From positions 2,046,001-2,110,000 of the forward strand of contig NZ_CP125854.1 of NCBI RefSeq assembly GCF_030169785.1: 64,000 nt of DNA, in the 5' to 3' direction. Below are positions 10,014 through 57,828 of the stretch, piece by piece. Source of the stretch: Bdellovibrio sp. 22V (GTDB lineage: Bacteria > Bdellovibrionota > Bdellovibrionia > Bdellovibrionales > Bdellovibrionaceae). The notes below the pieces were generated by a model. It saw only the letters and a list, made by a program, of their open reading frames with translations. It had not been told where the DNA came from and ran no database searches. How positions within the stretch are numbered: the stretch's first letter is position 1; each line of letters starts with the position of its first letter. Position numbers and translations under genes: made by a program.

Positions 10014-11873
10014 TTACCCTTTATTCAGAGAGATTCTGTTTCTCTGAATATTCATAATCTGTTCCAACTTTTCCGAACTAGGTTCGTTTTTAAGATCTCG
10101 TGCTAATTGCTTTGCTTGCTCTCTTAGGAAGTTTTCTTTCACGCGCTTAAAGCAATCACGCAAGAGCTTCATCTCTGCTTCTTCGTCAAACCCAGGTTCG
10201 CCCTCGGAGACTGGACCGGCTTGGAATAAATACTCCGGCTGATCGACGTAAGAGACAAGAAGACTGGTCAATTTATCAAACTTATTGAGATCTTGTCCAT
10301 ACACATCCGTCGCTTTTTCAAGGATCTTTTTCACTCCTTCGTGAGCGACACTCTCAAGTAAATTTTCATTCACAAAATGATTAAAATTGGCACGACTTTT
10401 GAGTACCAATCCTAATAGCAGGAGCTCAGCTTTTGAGGCTCCTTTGAGGCTGATTTTGCCTGCCTCTGTAGCTGAAGACACCTGTTCCGCGGGCTTTGGG
10501 TTAGCAGGCGCACTTGGCTGCACCGTCCTACTTATTGCAGGCTTATTTTGTGAATAAACAGGGCCACTGCTTTGCAAACCGACAGCCTGACGCAACCAAG
10601 GAAGGCCCACACCCATTTTTTGAGCGGCCTCGGCAAGATAAAGGTCGCGTAAACGAAGATCAGGTATGACCTCAAACAAAGGCTTGAGCTTATCGGCGAG
10701 CTTCACTTTTTCAGAAGCCTCCCCGCGGTACCCCTCCATCCAACGATCCAAGATCATCACCAAAAGATCAGGTGCACGCTCGAGTTCTACTTTCAGAGCG
10801 TCGGAGCCGTATTTTTTAACGTAATCGTCAGGGTCCATGCTGTTAGGAAGCGTGAGTCCCTTCGGATACAAATCGGCGGCAAGCAAAATCGGAAGACTGC
10901 GTTCGGCCGCTTCCATTCCTGCAGAATCGCCGTCAAAAAGCGCAATCACGTTCTTGGTCATACGCTTTAACATCTTCCCGTGATCAGGCGTTAAAGCCGT
11001 GCCCATAGTCGCAACGACGTTGCGAATGCCCGCTTGATACAAAGACACTAGGTCCATGTATCCCTCAACGATCAAAGCCATATCTTCACTGCGAATATAG
11101 CGCGCCGTTTGCGACAAACCGTAAAGAACTTTCCCCTTGATGAAGACCGGAGTCTCAGGAGAGTTCAGATATTTTGGCTCCGTTTCTTTTTTCTCAAGAT
11201 AACGTCCACCGAACGCAATGGGCTCTCCCATTGCAGAGAAAATCGGGAACATCAAACGGTCTCTGAAAATATCAAAGTAACCGGATTTGTTATTGCGAGC
11301 TTTAACAAGACGAGCTTCCTCTGCCAAAGGCATTGGAACTTGCTTGCTTGCTAAATACTGCTCAAGCCCATCCCATTCCGCGACCGCATAACCGATGCCG
11401 AAAGTGTCGATGACTTCCTGAGAAAGTCCTCGGCCCGCGATGTATTTACGAACTGGATGATCATGAGGAACACGTTTAAGTTGCTCTGAAAAGTAATGAG
11501 CAGCGAGCTTATTTACTTTTAACAACAACTTCTTTTTCTCAGCGACTTGATCGCGAGCTTCGTCATCTTTTTCTGGCGCAGGAATTGGAATGCTGGCGCG
11601 ATTTGCAAGATACTCAACAGCTTCAGGAAAACTCATTCCTTGGTAATCACGCAAAAAAGAAAACAAGTTGCCGCTCTTGTGGCAACCGAAGCAGTGATAG
11701 ACCTGTTTCGTCTCAGAAACGGAGAACGACGCCGTTTTTTCGACGTGATCCGGAAATGGACAGCGGCCCATAAGGCCGCTACCACTAGGTTTTAACTGAG
11801 TGTATTGAGAAATAATGTCGACGAGGTTGTTCGCCTCTGACACTCTCTCGATAAAGTCTTGAGAAAATCTCAT
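10014..11873 (-). CDS. dnaG: DNA primase
   Basis: DnaG makes the RNA primers for lagging-strand DNA synthesis. The 619-residue protein has the CHC2-type N-terminal zinc finger (C38, H43, C61, C64 in CPFPDH..CFGCH), the catalytic core, and a Toprim domain with LIVEGYMD (acidic residue near 267) and DGDSAG near 315, then a C-terminal helicase-interaction region after a Pro/Ala-rich linker near 445-470. The length is normal. It lies between yqeY and rpoD. The ribosome binding site is GGAAGG. A palindromic GGTACC repeat occupies the gap just upstream and may dampen read-through from rpsU-yqeY. Confidence 0.97.
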
Positions 11874-11891: not shown

Positions 11892-11917
11892 GGAAAAAGG
11901 TACCTGGTACCTTTTCC
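11892..11917. repeat. GGTACC-T-GGTACC palindromic element, copy A
   Basis: GGAAAAAGGTACC and GGTACCTTTTCC face each other around a single T. It forms a hairpin with A- and T-rich flanks, so it could terminate or slow transcription in either direction. It lies inside the macromolecular synthesis operon, between yqeY and dnaG. Related copies are at 20933, 46685 and 57614. Confidence 0.85.
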
Positions 11918-11924
11918 ACTTAGT

Positions 11925-12371
11925 TTACGTAAGTTTCGATTTAATAACTTCGCTAACTACTTTGTTGTCTGCGGCGCCACCGGATTTTGCGATGACTTCT
12001 TTCATCACAGGACCCATGTCCTTCACGGTTTTAGCACCCAATGATGCAATAACTTGAGTAACGAGAGCTTCGATTTGTTCACGGCTCATTTGCGCAGGCA
12101 AATAAACTTCAAGAACTTTCAATTCCGCAGTCTCTTGATCCACGAGATCTTGGCGACCTGCTGTTTGGAATTGCTCGATAGATTCTTTTCTTTGCTTAAC
12201 AAGCTTTTTAACTACGCCAAGAACTTCCTCAGAAGTGATGGGGTTCGGGCGCATATCGATTTCACGATTTTTGATCGCAGCTTGGAGCATACGAAGAGCT
12301 CCCAACTTTACTGAATCTTTTGCGATCATCGCAGCTTTAATGTCTGCAGTAACTTGATCTCTGATTTCCAT
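11925..12371 (-). CDS. GatB/YqeY domain protein
   Basis: A 148-residue protein of the YqeY family, related to the tail of the GatB subunit of the tRNA amidotransferase and thought to bind tRNA; its exact role is not settled. The family pattern is visible along its length (LGALRMLQAAIKNREI, EVLGVVKKLVKQRKESI, and a C-terminal KDMGPVMKEVIAKSGGAAD block). The ATG at 12371 is chosen because GGAGG lies five bases upstream; another ATG at 12383 overlaps that ribosome binding site. YqeY commonly lies between rpsU and dnaG in bacteria, as here. Confidence 0.93.
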   Translation of the reverse strand: MEIRDQVTADIKAAMIAKDSVKLGALRMLQAAIKNREIDMRPNPITSEEVLGVVKKLVKQRKESIEQFQTAGRQDLVDQETAELKVLEVYLPAQMSREQIEALVTQVIASLGAKTVKDMGPVMKEVIAKSGGAADNKVVSEVIKSKLT

Positions 12372-12388
12372 AGCAACCTCCATAGAAC

Positions 12389-19027: not shown

Positions 19028-19390
19028 TTACATGCCTTTGAATTTGATTCGCTTAGTTTCGAGAATCTTTTTTAATTGGTCTCTTTTGTCGCCTTGAATT
19101 TCAATCATGCCATGCTTTTCGCCAAGGATATGCGTTCCACCAACACCACACTTGGCTTTCAGTTCCTTCGCAAGCGTCTTGATATAGTCTTCGTTGCGAG
19201 GAAATCCATCCATAATCGTCACAGTCTTTCCTCCTCTTCCGCCTTTTTCCAGACGGAAAATGACGGTGAATTGGCCTTCTTGGACAGTTTCTTCAGGACG
19301 GCAGCGGCACTCGGCCTTGAGTTGCTTACATTGAGGACAAACAATGTTGTCCTTGGGATCAGTACTATAAACTAAGCGAGTATTTTTCAT
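19028..19390 (-). CDS. yciH: SUI1/eIF1-like translation factor (YciH)
   Basis: A 120-residue protein with the SUI1 domain in its C-terminal two thirds (GGRGGKTVTIMDGF, LKAKCGVGGTHI, IEIQGDKRDQL). It is the bacterial relative of eukaryotic initiation factor eIF1, which acts in start-codon selection on the small ribosomal subunit. The N-terminus keeps the RLVYST block and has four cysteines (C18, C21, C28, C30) in CPQC..CRC, which could bind zinc; this is not seen in the Escherichia coli protein. Its ATG overlaps the spoVR stop by four bases, so it is coupled to that gene, an unusual link between the stress operon and translation. Confidence 0.9.
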   Translation of the reverse strand: MKNTRLVYSTDPKDNIVCPQCKQLKAECRCRPEETVQEGQFTVIFRLEKGGRGGKTVTIMDGFPRNEDYIKTLAKELKAKCGVGGTHILGEKHGMIEIQGDKRDQLKKILETKRIKFKGM

Positions 19391-20910
19391 GAACCTGCAG
19401 TTTCGTTGGACGGATTCGGACTAGGCTCTTCACCCAGTTTGTGCTGAGTGTACTCTTTCCCGTCGAATCTAAAAAGCTGCGGAGTTTCATCCATAACGGT
19501 CGCTAGGTTTACAGGTCTTTTCCACATTTTAAAGACGTTCTTCAGCGTCTCGCTCATAAAATCGGGTTGCATGTCGATGCCTTCATGCAAGTGAGTTAAC
19601 AACAACTCACCGCGATTTTCGAAGTTTGCATCTTCGATACGAATGATTGGCTGACCGAAGTTTGTCATGTGGAAAAGAAGTTGCGCTTTGATAGCCTTAA
19701 AGTCTTTGGTATCGACCTCAAACTTCTGCGTCTTCTTATTAAACTTATAAACGAAGAGTTTATTGCGAACACAGAAATCTTCCGTCAGGAACTGATCAAT
19801 GAAAGTGACGTCATTGCACACTTTGCGCACTTCAAAGATTTTTTCACGGCCTAAGCGAAGATCTCTGTTCCAGTTTTTGCGTTCGCGAATATCATCACAC
19901 TGTTCCCATTCGCGACCGAACTGACCTTTATTCCAGCGCTCTTCAATATCACGGAAAAGTTCAATCCCCACTTTATAAGGATTGTATCCGTTTGGAGCCA
20001 TTGCCATCGTTCCACTGTGGTGATCGGCAAAGTCGATAATTTCAGAGTCATTGAGAATTTTCGTCGTCATGAGTTTCGAGTGCCAGTAAGACGCCCAACC
20101 CTCATTCATCGTTTTCGTCATTCCTTGCGGAGAGAAGTAATAAGCTTCATCGCGAATGATCGACAACACATCCTGCTGCCAGTCCGTCAACGGAGCGTAG
20201 TGAATAAAGAAGTTCAGGATATCTTTTTCAGGCTCACTCGGGAATCTTTGCGCCTTTTCTTGCGCTTCTTGTTCAGCCTTACGACGTTGTTCTTCAACAA
20301 ACGACGGAGGATTAATGTAGTCGCGCATATAAGAGCGATCGACACGCAAAAGATAATTCGGCTCTTGCGCACGATTTTCTTCCGGCTTAACCACAGACTT
20401 TTCCACATAGGGACTGTAGCGGTCGATCAAATTTTCAAGACTCAAACAGACGTCGATAAAGTTTTCCACAACGTCTTGACCATGACGATCCATATAGCGA
20501 CGAATACGTGTCGCGTGATTCGCCATCTGGTCCATCATTTTGCGATTTGTTTTCGAGAACCAAATATTGTTTTTAAAGAAGTCGCAGTGACCATACACGT
20601 GGGCCATCACAAGCTTCTGATCCATCATCGCGTTACCTTCCATGAGGTACGCGTAACAAGGATCTGTGTTAATCACCATTTCATAAATTTTTGAAAGACC
20701 GTATTCGTAGCTCTTGGAGAGATGCTCATACTCCATACCAAACTTCCAGTGTGGATAACGCACCGGAAATCCGCCGTAAGCAGCGAACTGATTGATTTGA
20801 TCGTAAGTGATCAATTCAAAGATAGTTTCAAAGCAATCCAGACCCGCCTCTTTAGCGATGGCCCAAATTCTTTTTCTTTCTGCTTCAAGTTCGGGAGTTA
20901 AATTTGCCAT
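19387..20910 (-). CDS. spoVR: SpoVR family protein
   Basis: A 507-residue soluble protein of the SpoVR/YcgB family. The conserved blocks are present: FPVRYPHWKFGMEYE near residue 50, the HVYGHCDFFKNN segment near 105, EGWASYWHSK near 270 and YNPYKVGIELF near 300. The family role is poorly defined: it is involved in spore cortex formation in Bacillus and in stress survival in enterobacteria. No spore genes are expected here, so the general stress role is more likely. GGAG lies eight bases before the ATG. It follows yeaH and prkA on the same strand, matching the YeaG-YeaH-YcgB functional group; a GGTACC repeat interrupts the gap after yeaH. Confidence 0.95.
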   Translation of the reverse strand: MANLTPELEAERKRIWAIAKEAGLDCFETIFELITYDQINQFAAYGGFPVRYPHWKFGMEYEHLSKSYEYGLSKIYEMVINTDPCYAYLMEGNAMMDQKLVMAHVYGHCDFFKNNIWFSKTNRKMMDQMANHATRIRRYMDRHGQDVVENFIDVCLSLENLIDRYSPYVEKSVVKPEENRAQEPNYLLRVDRSYMRDYINPPSFVEEQRRKAEQEAQEKAQRFPSEPEKDILNFFIHYAPLTDWQQDVLSIIRDEAYYFSPQGMTKTMNEGWASYWHSKLMTTKILNDSEIIDFADHHSGTMAMAPNGYNPYKVGIELFRDIEERWNKGQFGREWEQCDDIRERKNWNRDLRLGREKIFEVRKVCNDVTFIDQFLTEDFCVRNKLFVYKFNKKTQKFEVDTKDFKAIKAQLLFHMTNFGQPIIRIEDANFENRGELLLTHLHEGIDMQPDFMSETLKNVFKMWKRPVNLATVMDETPQLFRFDGKEYTQHKLGEEPSPNPSNETAGS

Positions 20911-20932: not shown

Positions 20933-20959
20933 GGAAAAAGGTACCTGGTACCTTTTTCC
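20933..20959. repeat. GGTACC-T-GGTACC palindromic element, copy B
   Basis: Two perfect 13-base arms (GGAAAAAGGTACC and its complement) flank one central T. The element abuts the yeaH stop codon (20959-20961) and fills the gap before spoVR. On the minus strand it reads as a hairpin followed by TTTTTCC, a possible partial terminator inside the operon. Confidence 0.88.
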
Positions 20960-22056
20960 TATTTGCCCTTCCCAAGGAAGTCTTTGATTGAATCGAGGAT
21001 CTTGTCGCGGTTTTCAATTTGGCTCAGAGTCAGTCTTTCGTCTCCGCCAAATTCTTTTTGCAAATCCTTAAGGAATTGCCCGCTCCCGTACTTACTTTCC
21101 ACCTGTCCGTAACTGAACACATTGCAGTTCGGAAGGAAGAATTCCGTCAGCATCTTCACGCACAGGCGCGTGTCTTCACCAGACCAGTTATCGCCGTCAC
21201 TGAAATGGAACGGATAAATGTTCCACTCGTTCACAGGATAATCTTTTTCGATGATCTCCTGACAAAGTTTATAAGCAGAGCTGATTAAAGTACCGCCCGA
21301 CTCACTTGTTCTAAAAAACGTATCTTCATCAACTTCTTTTGCTGCAGCATCGTGAATGATGAAACGTGTTTCCAGACCCTTATAATGTTTTTTCAACCAG
21401 GTATTGATCCAGAAACTTTCAAGACGAACGATCTCTTTTTGTTCGTCGCCCATTGAGCCTGACACGTCCATCATATAAATCACCACCGCCTGAGTTTGCG
21501 GCTGAGTGACTTTCTTAAAGGATTTGTACTGCATGTCCCGACGAATCGGAATAACCAGCGGTTCTTCCGCATTGTAGGTTCCAGAACCCACAAGACGCTT
21601 CAAAGCCCTTTTATAGGATGATTTGAAATGACGAAGACCTTCGGGCCCAACTGGTGCCAAACCCGTAAATTTCGTCTTAATCGATTCGATGTTTTTCGCG
21701 CCCTTAGGCTCAATGCGCGGAAGCTCGAGTTTTTCGCCAAGAATATCAGCGAGCTCTTCCATGGTTAATTCGACTTCAAGCAAATGCTCGCCGGGAGCCT
21801 CGCCCGCCTGACCTTGACCGCCTTCACCCGGATCGCCCACGTCTTGGCCGGGTTGACCTTCACCCTGACCGACGCCACCTTGCTGTTTCGGGCCGTAACG
21901 GAAGTTGGGGATGTCGATACGAGGAAGCGGAATCTTTACAAATTCATCTTCACGCTTCCCGATCATCTCGCCTTGAGAGACGTACTTGCGCAGGTCCTCT
22001 TTAACCTTCCCTTTTACGATCTCTCTAAATCTATTATGGTCTTCACGTATCGACAT
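20959..22056 (-). CDS. yeaH: DUF444/YeaH family VWA-like protein
   Basis: A 365-residue protein of the YeaH/YhbH family. The N-terminal third is charged, with a Gly/Gln/Glu-rich low-complexity linker near 58-90; the second half is a VWA-like domain with [15 protein letters not shown] (MIDAS DxSxS near 196-200), and a later [13 protein letters not shown] acidic block. In Escherichia coli YeaH works with the kinase YeaG (PrkA) in response to nitrogen starvation and stress. Its ATG shares one base with the prkA stop (TAATG), so the two are translationally coupled. Confidence 0.94.
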
Positions 22057-45932: not shown

Positions 45933-46676
45933 ATGAAATACAAAGACTATTCCACCGAGATTTGGAACCGCATAAATACGACACTAGACCAAGTTTTAAA
46001 AGAAGATTCTTCGCCTGTTGCCGCGTTCGATGCCGACGGAACTTTGTGGGATATCGACTTGGGAGAAACCTTTTTCCACTATCAGATTGATAACAAGCTT
46101 GTGCCTCTTCCGCCACATCCTTGGGAACACTACGAAGACATGAAAGCACTTCATCCTCCCACGGCGTACCTTTGGCTAGCTCAAATTTGTAAAGGTCAAA
46201 GCTTGCAGCAGATCTACAGCTGGGCCAAGGCGGCCGTTATAGAACAAGCTCCCCTGCCCATTTTTCTTGAACAAAAGAAGCTTATCGATTTGTTTTTATC
46301 CCGAGGCGTGCGCGTTTATGTAGTGACCGCGTCTGTGAAGTGGGCCGTTGAGCCCGGAGCCGAAATGCTGGGCCTGCGCAAAGAAGACGTTTTGGGCGTT
46401 GAAACTGTCGTGGAGAAAGATCTTGTCACTGATGTGCAAAAGGGAATGATCACTTACCGTCAGGGTAAAGTGGATGCACTATTGCACGCCACCCAAGGCA
46501 AGAAGCCGTTCTTCTGCTCTGGCAATACAATGGGCGACTTCCAGCTTCTGCAAGCGTCCACACATTTGAGTTTGGCGGTGAGTGCCGCTTCTCGCGACGA
46601 TAAATTATTTAAAACAGAGTATGAATTGCAACAAAACGCCGAAAACTTCCAATGGCTTTCGCATCGTTTTATCTAA
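45933..46676 (+). CDS. HAD-superfamily phosphatase, SerB-like
   Basis: A 247-residue HAD hydrolase of the SerB-like (IB) subclass. Motif I is VAAFDADGTLWDID with the nucleophile aspartate and acid/base aspartate, motif II is VVTAS, motif III lysine falls near RQGKVD, and motif IV is CSGNTMGDFQLL. A cap region of about 90 residues follows motif I. The substrate is unknown; phosphoserine, phosphocholine-type and other small phosphomonoesters are possible. It is divergent from the acetyltransferase-like gene and ends at a GGTACC palindrome shared with pepP. Confidence 0.88.
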   Translation: MKYKDYSTEIWNRINTTLDQVLKEDSSPVAAFDADGTLWDIDLGETFFHYQIDNKLVPLPPHPWEHYEDMKALHPPTAYLWLAQICKGQSLQQIYSWAKAAVIEQAPLPIFLEQKKLIDLFLSRGVRVYVVTASVKWAVEPGAEMLGLRKEDVLGVETVVEKDLVTDVQKGMITYRQGKVDALLHATQGKKPFFCSGNTMGDFQLLQASTHLSLAVSAASRDDKLFKTEYELQQNAENFQWLSHRFI

Positions 46677-46684
46677 ATTGAATT

Positions 46685-46713
46685 GGGAAAAAGGTACCAG
46701 GTACCTTTTTCCC
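46685..46713. repeat. GGTACC-A-GGTACC palindromic element, copy C
   Basis: The longest copy: two perfect 14-base arms (GGGAAAAAGGTACC and its complement) around one A. It lies between the convergent HAD hydrolase and pepP genes, where it could terminate both transcripts. Confidence 0.88.
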
Positions 46714-46723
46714 TTATTTCTTG

Positions 46724-48040
46724 TTATTTACCGACAACTTTTTCGATGTCGGCGATTTCTTTAGGAACGGAAGAGGTCATATTCTCTGAACCGTTTGAAG
46801 TAACGCGGATATTGTCTTCGATACGAATCCCGATACCACGATACTTTTGCGGAGCTGACGTGTCTTCGGCCGGGATATAAAGACCTGGCTCAATCGTGAA
46901 GCACATATTCGCTTCGATCGGACGTGGCTCGCCTTTTTTGAAGTACAAACCGGCATCATGCACATCCATACCCAACCAGTGACCAATGCCATGCGGATAA
47001 TATTTCTTTTGCGCCAAAGCTTGGATCAAATCGTCTTTGCGACCGCTCAAAAGACCTAACTCCAACATAAGATCCGTCAATAATGACGTTCCCATATCGT
47101 GAAGCTCTTTAAAGACAATTCCAGGCTTTACGTAGTCGATGATTTGTTTTTGAACTTTAAGAACGCCTTCGTAAACACGCGCTTGCTCGTCCGTGAACTT
47201 GCCGTTCACTGGATAAGTTCTTGTGATATCACCCGTATAATAGTTGTACTCTGCCCCCGCATCGATCAGAAGCAAGTCGCCATCTTTACAAACTTGGTCG
47301 TTGAAATTGTAGTGCAACGTCGTTGCTGAGTTTCCTGAAGCTACGATAAAGTTGTAACCCTCGCGCGCAGCCCCTTTCATATAGAAATGATGAGCCAAGA
47401 CGCCTTGAACCTGACGTTCAGTCACGCCTGGGCGAGTGAAGCGCATCGCTGCCAAGTGAGCTTGCGCGCTGATTTCGCACGCTTCACGCAATTGTGTCAG
47501 TTCGTATTCGGATTTTACCAAACGCATTTCACCCAACAAAGTGTCAGCATCATGAATGGAGAGCAAACCGTAACCTGTACGACCTTGCATCTGTTTTACC
47601 ATCTCAAGCACACCCTGCATTTGATGATCGACTTCAGGATTTTTATACAAGCGATAATAAACGCGATCGACTTCCTTCAAAAGCTGCGGAGCCACCTTTG
47701 TAAATTCGTCAATGGGATAGGCTTTGTCGATTTTAAATTCACGCTCACAGCCTTCAGGACCGTAGCGGAATCCATCCCACGTTTCTCTTTCAGGATCACG
47801 GCGACGCACGAACATCACTGTTTCTGGTTTTAAACCGGGACGGTAAACCAAGATAGACTCTGGTTCTTCCCAACCCGTTAGATAAAACAAATTAGAATCT
47901 TGGCGATACGGATAGTGCACATCGTGGTTACGAATGTGTTCCGGATGAGAAGCGACAACAAGAGCTCCACCTTGAATTTCTTGTCCTACTTTATTTCTTC
48001 GCTCCGCAAAAATGTTCATATCAAAAGTGGGTTTTCTCAT
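46724..48040 (-). CDS. pepP: Xaa-Pro aminopeptidase
   Basis: A 438-residue metallopeptidase that removes an N-terminal residue before proline. The pita-bread fold C-terminal domain has all five metal ligands in order: LLIDAGAEYNYYTGDITRTYP (two Asp), PHGIGHWLGMDVHD (His), FTIEPGLYI (Glu) and IGIRIEDNI (Glu). The N-terminal creatinase-like domain is also full length. AGGAGA lies upstream of the ATG. It is last in the xseA-xseB-ispA-tlyA-patatin-pepP run, nine bases after the patatin-like gene. The N-terminus has no signal peptide, so it acts in the cytoplasm. Confidence 0.94.
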   Translation of the reverse strand: MRKPTFDMNIFAERRNKVGQEIQGGALVVASHPEHIRNHDVHYPYRQDSNLFYLTGWEEPESILVYRPGLKPETVMFVRRRDPERETWDGFRYGPEGCEREFKIDKAYPIDEFTKVAPQLLKEVDRVYYRLYKNPEVDHQMQGVLEMVKQMQGRTGYGLLSIHDADTLLGEMRLVKSEYELTQLREACEISAQAHLAAMRFTRPGVTERQVQGVLAHHFYMKGAAREGYNFIVASGNSATTLHYNFNDQVCKDGDLLLIDAGAEYNYYTGDITRTYPVNGKFTDEQARVYEGVLKVQKQIIDYVKPGIVFKELHDMGTSLLTDLMLELGLLSGRKDDLIQALAQKKYYPHGIGHWLGMDVHDAGLYFKKGEPRPIEANMCFTIEPGLYIPAEDTSAPQKYRGIGIRIEDNIRVTSNGSENMTSSVPKEIADIEKVVGK

Positions 48041-57183: not shown

Positions 57184-57615
57184 ATGAAAACAAAAAATAT
57201 GATTCTAAACTTTTTTAAGGCTTTGTTCCTGACTGCGATGACGCTCACTCTTGTGAACTGTAGTAAGGATTCAAATAGTGGAAACACAGTAACGACAGGT
57301 TACTATATGGGTGCAAACGGTATCTGCTACGCACAGAACGGTCAGCAAATGCCAAACACTTCTTATTGCTACAACAACAACGGATACAATACAGGTTACA
57401 CATGGCAAGCTAACGGTACTTGCGTGCAAACTTCAACAGGAATGCAAGTTCCAGTGAACTACTGCCAAACGAACGGTTACAACAACGGTACAGCGACAAT
57501 GGTGTGCCAAGGACCTCACACAGACGGTTATCAATGGGTGCAATGCGGAACGCAATTCAACTGCGCGGGTTACACACTTTATAACCAATCAATGCAAATC
57601 GTTCGCTGCCAATAG
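57184..57615 (+). CDS. Lipoprotein with tandem 32-residue Asn/Tyr/Cys-rich repeats
   Basis: A 143-residue lipoprotein: lipobox LVNC (Cys26), then two tandem repeats of exactly 32 residues, 39-70 and 71-102, with the pattern GY-x3-ANG-x-C-x(8)-M-P-x3-YC-x3-NGYN (each with two cysteines), then a related third part ending in RC. AGAGGG lies upstream of the ATG. The repeats are rich in Asn, Gln and Tyr and look like disulfide-held loops. No family recognised. Its stop codon overlaps a GGTACC palindrome. Likely on the cell surface; the function is unknown. Confidence 0.78.
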   Translation: MKTKNMILNFFKALFLTAMTLTLVNCSKDSNSGNTVTTGYYMGANGICYAQNGQQMPNTSYCYNNNGYNTGYTWQANGTCVQTSTGMQVPVNYCQTNGYNNGTATMVCQGPHTDGYQWVQCGTQFNCAGYTLYNQSMQIVRCQ

Positions 57616-57628
57616 GTACCTGGTACCT
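57614..57628. repeat. GGTACC-T-GGTACC palindromic element, copy D
   Basis: The core AGGTACC-T-GGTACCT without the long A/T arms, overlapping the stop codon of the repeat lipoprotein. A degenerate relative, GTACA-G-TGTAC (57642-57652), follows 14 bp later. Confidence 0.75.
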
Positions 57629-57828
57629 TTCGCGATCGAAGGTACAGTGTACTTTTCATATCAAAACGGAAGCTGGTACCACGGCGCGCCACAGGGTGCG
57701 CCGTTTTCTTTTTGGGGATATGCGTATTCCCTGAGCATTTCTTCTCGCGGCTCGAAACGCGATGCGAAATTCCTCTTTCAAACTCTGCCTAAGTTTTCAG
57801 CGACGGCTGTTCTTTTGTGACGCGGTTG

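Follow-up and report, generated by a model that had tools for sequence, protein, structure and literature searches.

A 27-bp palindrome with the core GGTACC-W-GGTACC recurs in the genome of Bdellovibrio sp. 22V, nearly always outside genes and often in contact with a stop codon. The palindrome is likely a nonautonomous REP-like element that is dispersed by a RAYT transposase, integrates beside stop codons, and at the same time serves as a compact terminator for both directions of transcription. Our starting point was a window of 64,000 nucleotides (positions 2,046,001 to 2,110,000 of the single 3,601,631-bp contig; this genome is referred to as G000). Genome-wide statements rest on pattern searches and on stretches fetched from the genome.

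Within the window, exact matches to GGTACCWGGTACC were located at positions 11899, 20940, 46693, and 57615. When up to two mismatches were allowed, five matches were obtained, compared with 0.15 expected from dinucleotide shuffles. Single GGTACC sites occurred at chance level (14 observed versus 13 expected); a plain enrichment of the KpnI site was therefore rejected, and the signal is that of the doublet. Four dispersed copies of the core had been proposed in a sequence-only reading of the window, which the exact matches at all four sites and the excess of the doublet bear out. The same reading had described shared A5/T5 arms and GG/CC ends for three of the copies. These features hold for the first three sites (11892 to 11918, 20933 to 20959, and 46685 to 46713), which are copies of one perfect palindrome of 27 to 29 bp, GGAAAAAGGTACC-W-GGTACCTTTTTCC (also written GGGAAAAAGGTACC-W-GGTACCTTTTTCCC), and not for the fourth, which lacks the arms and forms the left end of a 66-bp element. 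All four sites were extragenic or touched a stop codon, as had been claimed.

The first copy (27 bp; 11892 to 11918) lies between yqeY (11925 to 12383, minus strand) and dnaG (10014 to 11873, minus strand), a junction at which the palindrome is also present in a sister species (G020). As a hairpin upstream of dnaG, this copy could attenuate primase expression. The second copy (20933 to 20959), a perfect 27-mer, is located upstream of a SpoVR gene (19387 to 20910, minus strand), and its last base (20959) is part of the stop codon of a DUF444 gene (20959 to 22056, minus strand); a third species (G019) carries a GGTGCC-type element at this junction instead. The third copy (46685 to 46713), a perfect palindrome of 29 bp that scored as terminator-like on both strands, separates convergent genes for a HAD hydrolase (45933 to 46676, plus strand) and an Xaa-Pro aminopeptidase (46724 to 48040, minus strand). 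The fourth site is a REPIN-type element of 66 bp (57615 to 57680) composed of two inverted REPs, with GGTACCTGGTACC (57615 to 57627) and GGAAGCTGGTACC (57668 to 57680) at its ends. The stop codon of an ORF at 57184 to 57615 (plus strand) shares its final base with the start of this element, which is directly followed by a separate feature, an ordinary intrinsic-terminator-like hairpin (57681 to 57704, plus strand).

The whole genome contains 19 exact cores and 38 copies with up to three mismatches to the 27-mer, and the control (for the cores, the reversed pattern) yielded no match in either search. Within the genus, only G020 was comparable (21 cores and 18 near 27-mers); the other congeners had 0 to 2 copies each. 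Unusual clustering in the window was considered and rejected, as no 64-kb stretch contained more than 4 of the 38 copies, a maximum that was reached by chance in 58% of simulations.

Three Y1_Tnp genes were found in G000. One of these, at about 3,554,250 to 3,554,900 of contig C1, encodes a 212-amino-acid HUH/tyrosine RAYT with NHFH and YKYVYRNPV motifs and is located between a putative oligopeptide-permease gene and a putative arginine-decarboxylase gene (names assigned by eye from the translations). Its best match among solved structures was the Escherichia coli TnpAREP protein (4ER8; E value of 3e-7); it scored above the cutoff for PF01797 and at 65 bits, below the cutoff of 80, for the NCBIfam model REP_Tyr_transpos (NF047646). 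The HUH motif, the catalytic tyrosine with a downstream NPV, and the matches to TnpAREP models place the protein in the RAYT (TnpAREP) family. Inverted GGTACCTGCTTCC elements lie on both sides of the gene, each beginning at the stop codon of the neighboring gene. The sequence-only reading had suggested a search for a Y1 RAYT gene flanked by the motif; the genome does encode a RAYT, and its flanks are the sister REP GGTACCTGCTTCC, no RAYT flanked by the exact palindrome having been found in G000.

Inverted GGTACCTGCTTCC flanks on both sides of the RAYT gene were also present in G008, G018, and G020, and in G019 GGTACCTGCTTCC was found at a wider spacing (100 to 230 bp away) with one extra copy. 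The RAYTs of these five genomes formed one group (99% SH-aLRT) in a quick phylogenetic tree, in which several forks were weak and some branches were long. Six or more copies of GGTACCTGCTTCC were detected in all five genomes with this RAYT, compared with 2 of the 19 others (G001 and G003; P = 0.0005, a value that ignores kinship). Both G001 and G003 have many GGTACCTGCTTCC REPs, and searches of these genomes detected no RAYT from the corresponding clade; the transposase may have been lost there, or it may have been missed in fragmented assemblies. Two further RAYT-like families in Bdellovibrio (L105, L150, and L161; L098, L100, and L145) have inverted flanks of their own, namely, GGGTATCGGTCA and GACCCTCGCCC. 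Loose flank classes in the RAYT tree (e.g., "A1") mostly reflected chance and were left unused.

The GGTACCTGCTTCC elements frequently occur as inverted pairs 14 to 100 bp apart (i.e., REPINs), including the window element at 57615 to 57680, whereas most of the GGTACC-W-GGTACC palindromes are solitary. The two are tied to each other by chimeric copies in G000 and G008 (L030, L034, and L027), which have the form GGTACCTGCTTCC...GAAAAAGGTACCAGGTACCTTTTTCC, and by REPINs with the palindrome as their center, such as the full REPIN of G020, GGTACCTGCTTCC-CATCGTGAT-AAAAAGGTACCAGGTTCCTT-...-GGAAGCAGGTACC. These repeats have the broad hallmarks of REPs and REPINs, being near-identical extragenic palindromes in many copies and, in the GGTACCTGCTTCC form, inverted pairs.

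In G019, the listed members of 36 pattern matches all belonged to a sister palindrome, GGTGCC-W-GGCACC (AAAAGGTGCCWGGCACCTTTT). Two copies of it flank the RAYT gene of this species exactly, one on each side. None of the 22 copies checked was inside a gene, and 13 were between convergent genes. A conserved one-sided tail resembling GCTTCACTCGGCGCATTA accompanies AAAAGGTGCCWGGCACCTTTT in G019 (L328 to L347) and is very similar on both sides of the RAYT gene; AAAAGGTGCCWGGCACCTTTT together with this tail looks like a complete mobile unit. The earlier proposal that the palindromes are REP-like, of a kind that RAYTs can move, gains support from the RAYT with sister-REP flanks, the chimeras, the pairing of RAYT and palindrome in G019, and the junctions at which relatives have no element, from which we infer movement.

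Relatives were compared at 18 junctions, and most of the junctions compared had no REP in the relatives. This observation bears on the possibility that the solitary palindromes are what is left of ancestral full-length REPINs after loss of the outer arms in situ, such that the copy number reflects decay and not amplification. One junction (L008) would fit such a course, with the palindrome in G000, a full 67-bp REPIN in G020, and another REP in G006; three species have no element there, and the stop and start codons overlap (TAATG). The existence of chimeras and the three junctions at which G000 and G020 share the palindrome (L010/L050, L125/L059, and L130/L060, including yqeY-dnaG) would fit as well. 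However, besides the lack of REPs in relatives, decay would not repeatedly yield one and the same 27-bp palindrome, perfect and with GG/CC ends that match, and the palindromic form in G019 was amplified together with its RAYT. We regard decay as an unlikely account of the copies.

At some junctions, the elements of different species differ in type. Palindromes of the GGTACC type in G000 and of the GGTGCC type in G019 occupy the same gene junctions in three cases (L131/L333, L006/L343, and L011/L328), and a few junctions carry different REP-like types across several species. In relatives, the density of REP-like cores of different types at these junctions was about 24 times that of the surrounding sequence (10 per 7,500 bp versus 4 per 70,760 bp), an estimate based on small numbers and on a motif chosen by the analyst. 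This excess suggests that certain gene ends have been repeatedly colonized; in-place turnover of older elements may also have occurred. Because the relatives are only 70 to 93% identical and too diverged for insertion ends to be placed exactly, no clean target-site duplication was evident by eye and no strain-level insertion was seen among them.

By our own codon-usage gene caller, which was trained on the window and is therefore approximate, almost every copy is extragenic; the one apparent exception (L118) runs into the 3' ends of two convergent ORFs. Stop contact, meaning that a stop codon ends between -5 and +3 bp from an element edge, was observed for 20 of the 36 copies examined in G000 and for 19 of 21 in G020. 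The pooled proportion (39 of 57) compares with 7.3% of random intergenic placements (binomial P of ~4e-31), and the enrichment outside genes and at stops that the sequence-only reading had proposed as a check was thus found genome-wide. The first base of the element is often the last base of a TAG or TAA codon (e.g., at 20959 in the window). Among 58 copies with called neighbors, the neighboring genes were convergent for 29, in the same direction for 27, and divergent for 2.

Folded as RNA, the 29-mer forms a 13-bp hairpin with a 3-nt loop (-18.3 kcal/mol). On either strand, a GC stem-loop is followed by a T-run, as in an intrinsic terminator, and a terminator scan scored the copy at 46685 on both strands. 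At five junctions (L006 and L012 in G000; L055, L061, and L065 in G020), the palindrome of the focal genome corresponds in relatives to unrelated canonical terminators. Judged by these features, the palindrome probably doubles as a compact bidirectional terminator. It might even be the favorite intrinsic terminator of this lineage, one that arose in situ under selection for a hairpin acting in both directions and that is not mobile; the positions right after stops, the half of copies between convergent genes, the A and T tracts with terminator scores on both strands, and the substitution for unrelated terminators at several junctions are consistent with that idea. A terminator, however, needs structure and not one exact 27-bp sequence, and the copies share their sequence including the loop and the ends. 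The 38 copies show 48 one-sided stem changes and no compensated pair, and they therefore look young and not kept by pairing alone. An ordinary terminator adjoins 11 of the 36 copies in G000 (e.g., L004 and L014), so that termination cannot be the sole reason for their existence. Copy number also rises from 0 to 2 up to 38 within one genus, and the palindrome is embedded in RAYT-associated REPINs. An origin purely as a terminator is thus quite improbable. A protein-binding site (e.g., of a nucleoid or segregation protein) that selection for regular positions along the chromosome has spread or maintained would explain the perfect dyad symmetry and the dispersal over the chromosome but is highly implausible, given that positions mostly differ between sister species, that copies hug stop codons without unusual clustering, and that most congeners lack the element.

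For the RAYT-dispersed element that we favor, the full form would be a REPIN, GGTACCTGCTTCC - loop - AAAAAGGTACCAGGTNCC - loop - GGAAGCAGGTACC, of which the palindrome would be the center, amplified alone in G000 and one sister species. Dispersal would most likely depend on the 212-amino-acid HUH/tyrosine RAYT, acting on the hairpin in single-stranded form, which it would cleave and religate. Copies are retained almost exclusively at gene 3' ends, in many cases in direct contact with the stop codon. In these positions, A5-GGTACC-W-GGTACC-T5 would fold into a compact intrinsic terminator that can be read on either strand, and at some junctions the palindrome appears to replace the terminator of the relatives.

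The closest known systems are the GTAG-tagged REPs and REPINs with RAYTs (TnpAREP) of gammaproteobacteria (PMC2817692, PMC3116915, and PMC8266576), with which the present system shares short extragenic palindromes, inverted pairs, an HUH/tyrosine RAYT gene flanked by REPs, and a correspondence between RAYT type and REP type. Unlike these REPs, the Bdellovibrio element is perfectly palindromic, has A/T tracts and a loop of 3 nt, occurs in tens and not hundreds of copies tightly at stop codons, and is associated with a divergent RAYT clade. The GTAG/CGTC REP superfamilies are defined by an unpaired tag at one foot of the hairpin (PMC3733652). No conserved GTAG or CGTC tag was found at the hairpin foot in the palindrome copies inspected, and the element was therefore not filed in these superfamilies. 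Group 3 TnpAREP systems (Stenotrophomonas and Marinomonas) similarly combine a perfectly palindromic REP with RAYT recognition, but their REPs carry GTAG 5' of the hairpin (PMC8266576). In TIRtrons (PMC3733652), RAYT-like genes have inverted repeats without GTAG on their flanks, and some of these repeats form small families. They resemble the Bdellovibrio system in these flanks, which are also dispersed as partly self-complementary elements; their published shared motif is GGGGWSAS, in contrast to A4-GGTNCC-W-GGNACC-T4 here, and the present element may overlap an unnamed published TIR. Bidirectional intrinsic terminators share the A-tract, GC stem, and T-tract, readability on both strands, and placement between convergent genes, but they are not one exact sequence repeated and linked to a transposase family. 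Nothing relevant to the core sequence as printed was among the literature matches listed, and Bdellovibrio was not named in the RAYT/REP literature found.

The core also occurs outside Bdellovibrio: when 84,980 species were scanned for AAAAAGGTACCWGGTACCTTTTT, 15 stretches were found in unrelated MAGs, compared with ~0.01 expected from a base-composition estimate. Three Elusimicrobia MAGs contained 13 to 21 copies each, and one Planctomycetota MAG contained 142 (up to three mismatches). RAYT genes directly adjoin such palindromes in Elusimicrobia (L304 and L321), Acidimicrobiales (L303), and Planctomycetota (L311, a GGTTCC variant). The initial description of a REP-like family of this lineage is therefore apt as to the family and too narrow as to the lineage. 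A single clade of GGT-type RAYTs across phyla was not supported, since those of Bdellovibrio and those of Elusimicrobia, Acidimicrobiales, and Planctomycetota fall in different parts of the tree; the core in distant phyla may reflect shared descent, transfer, or convergence. In Elusimicrobia GWA2_51_34 (L286/L321), palindrome arrays spaced ~100 bp apart surround the RAYT gene, with several blocks within 5 kb, and in the Acidimicrobiales MAG at least five GGTACCTGGTACC palindromes, several spaced by ~25 bp, are found at both ends of the RAYT gene (L303).

We tentatively propose that A4-GGTNCC-W-GGNACC-T4 hairpins could constitute a so far undescribed class of REPs that lack a tag and are paired with dedicated RAYTs across several phyla (Bdellovibrionota, Elusimicrobia, an Acidimicrobiales MAG, and a Planctomycetota MAG). 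In Bdellovibrio, the RAYTs might direct insertion to the TA of stop codons, and the element would thereby spread as a ready-made bidirectional terminator that repeatedly recolonizes the same gene ends. The GGTACC, GGTGCC, and GGTTCC hairpins, each of which lies close to a RAYT of its own, provide ready material for studies of DNA recognition by RAYTs. These findings broaden RAYT/REP biology, adding a predatory bacterial lineage and a class of untagged hairpins that are perfectly palindromic and whose core recurs in distant phyla. They also offer a natural case of a mobile hairpin that lands after stop codons and may replace host terminators, in which host benefit can be tested against selfish spread.
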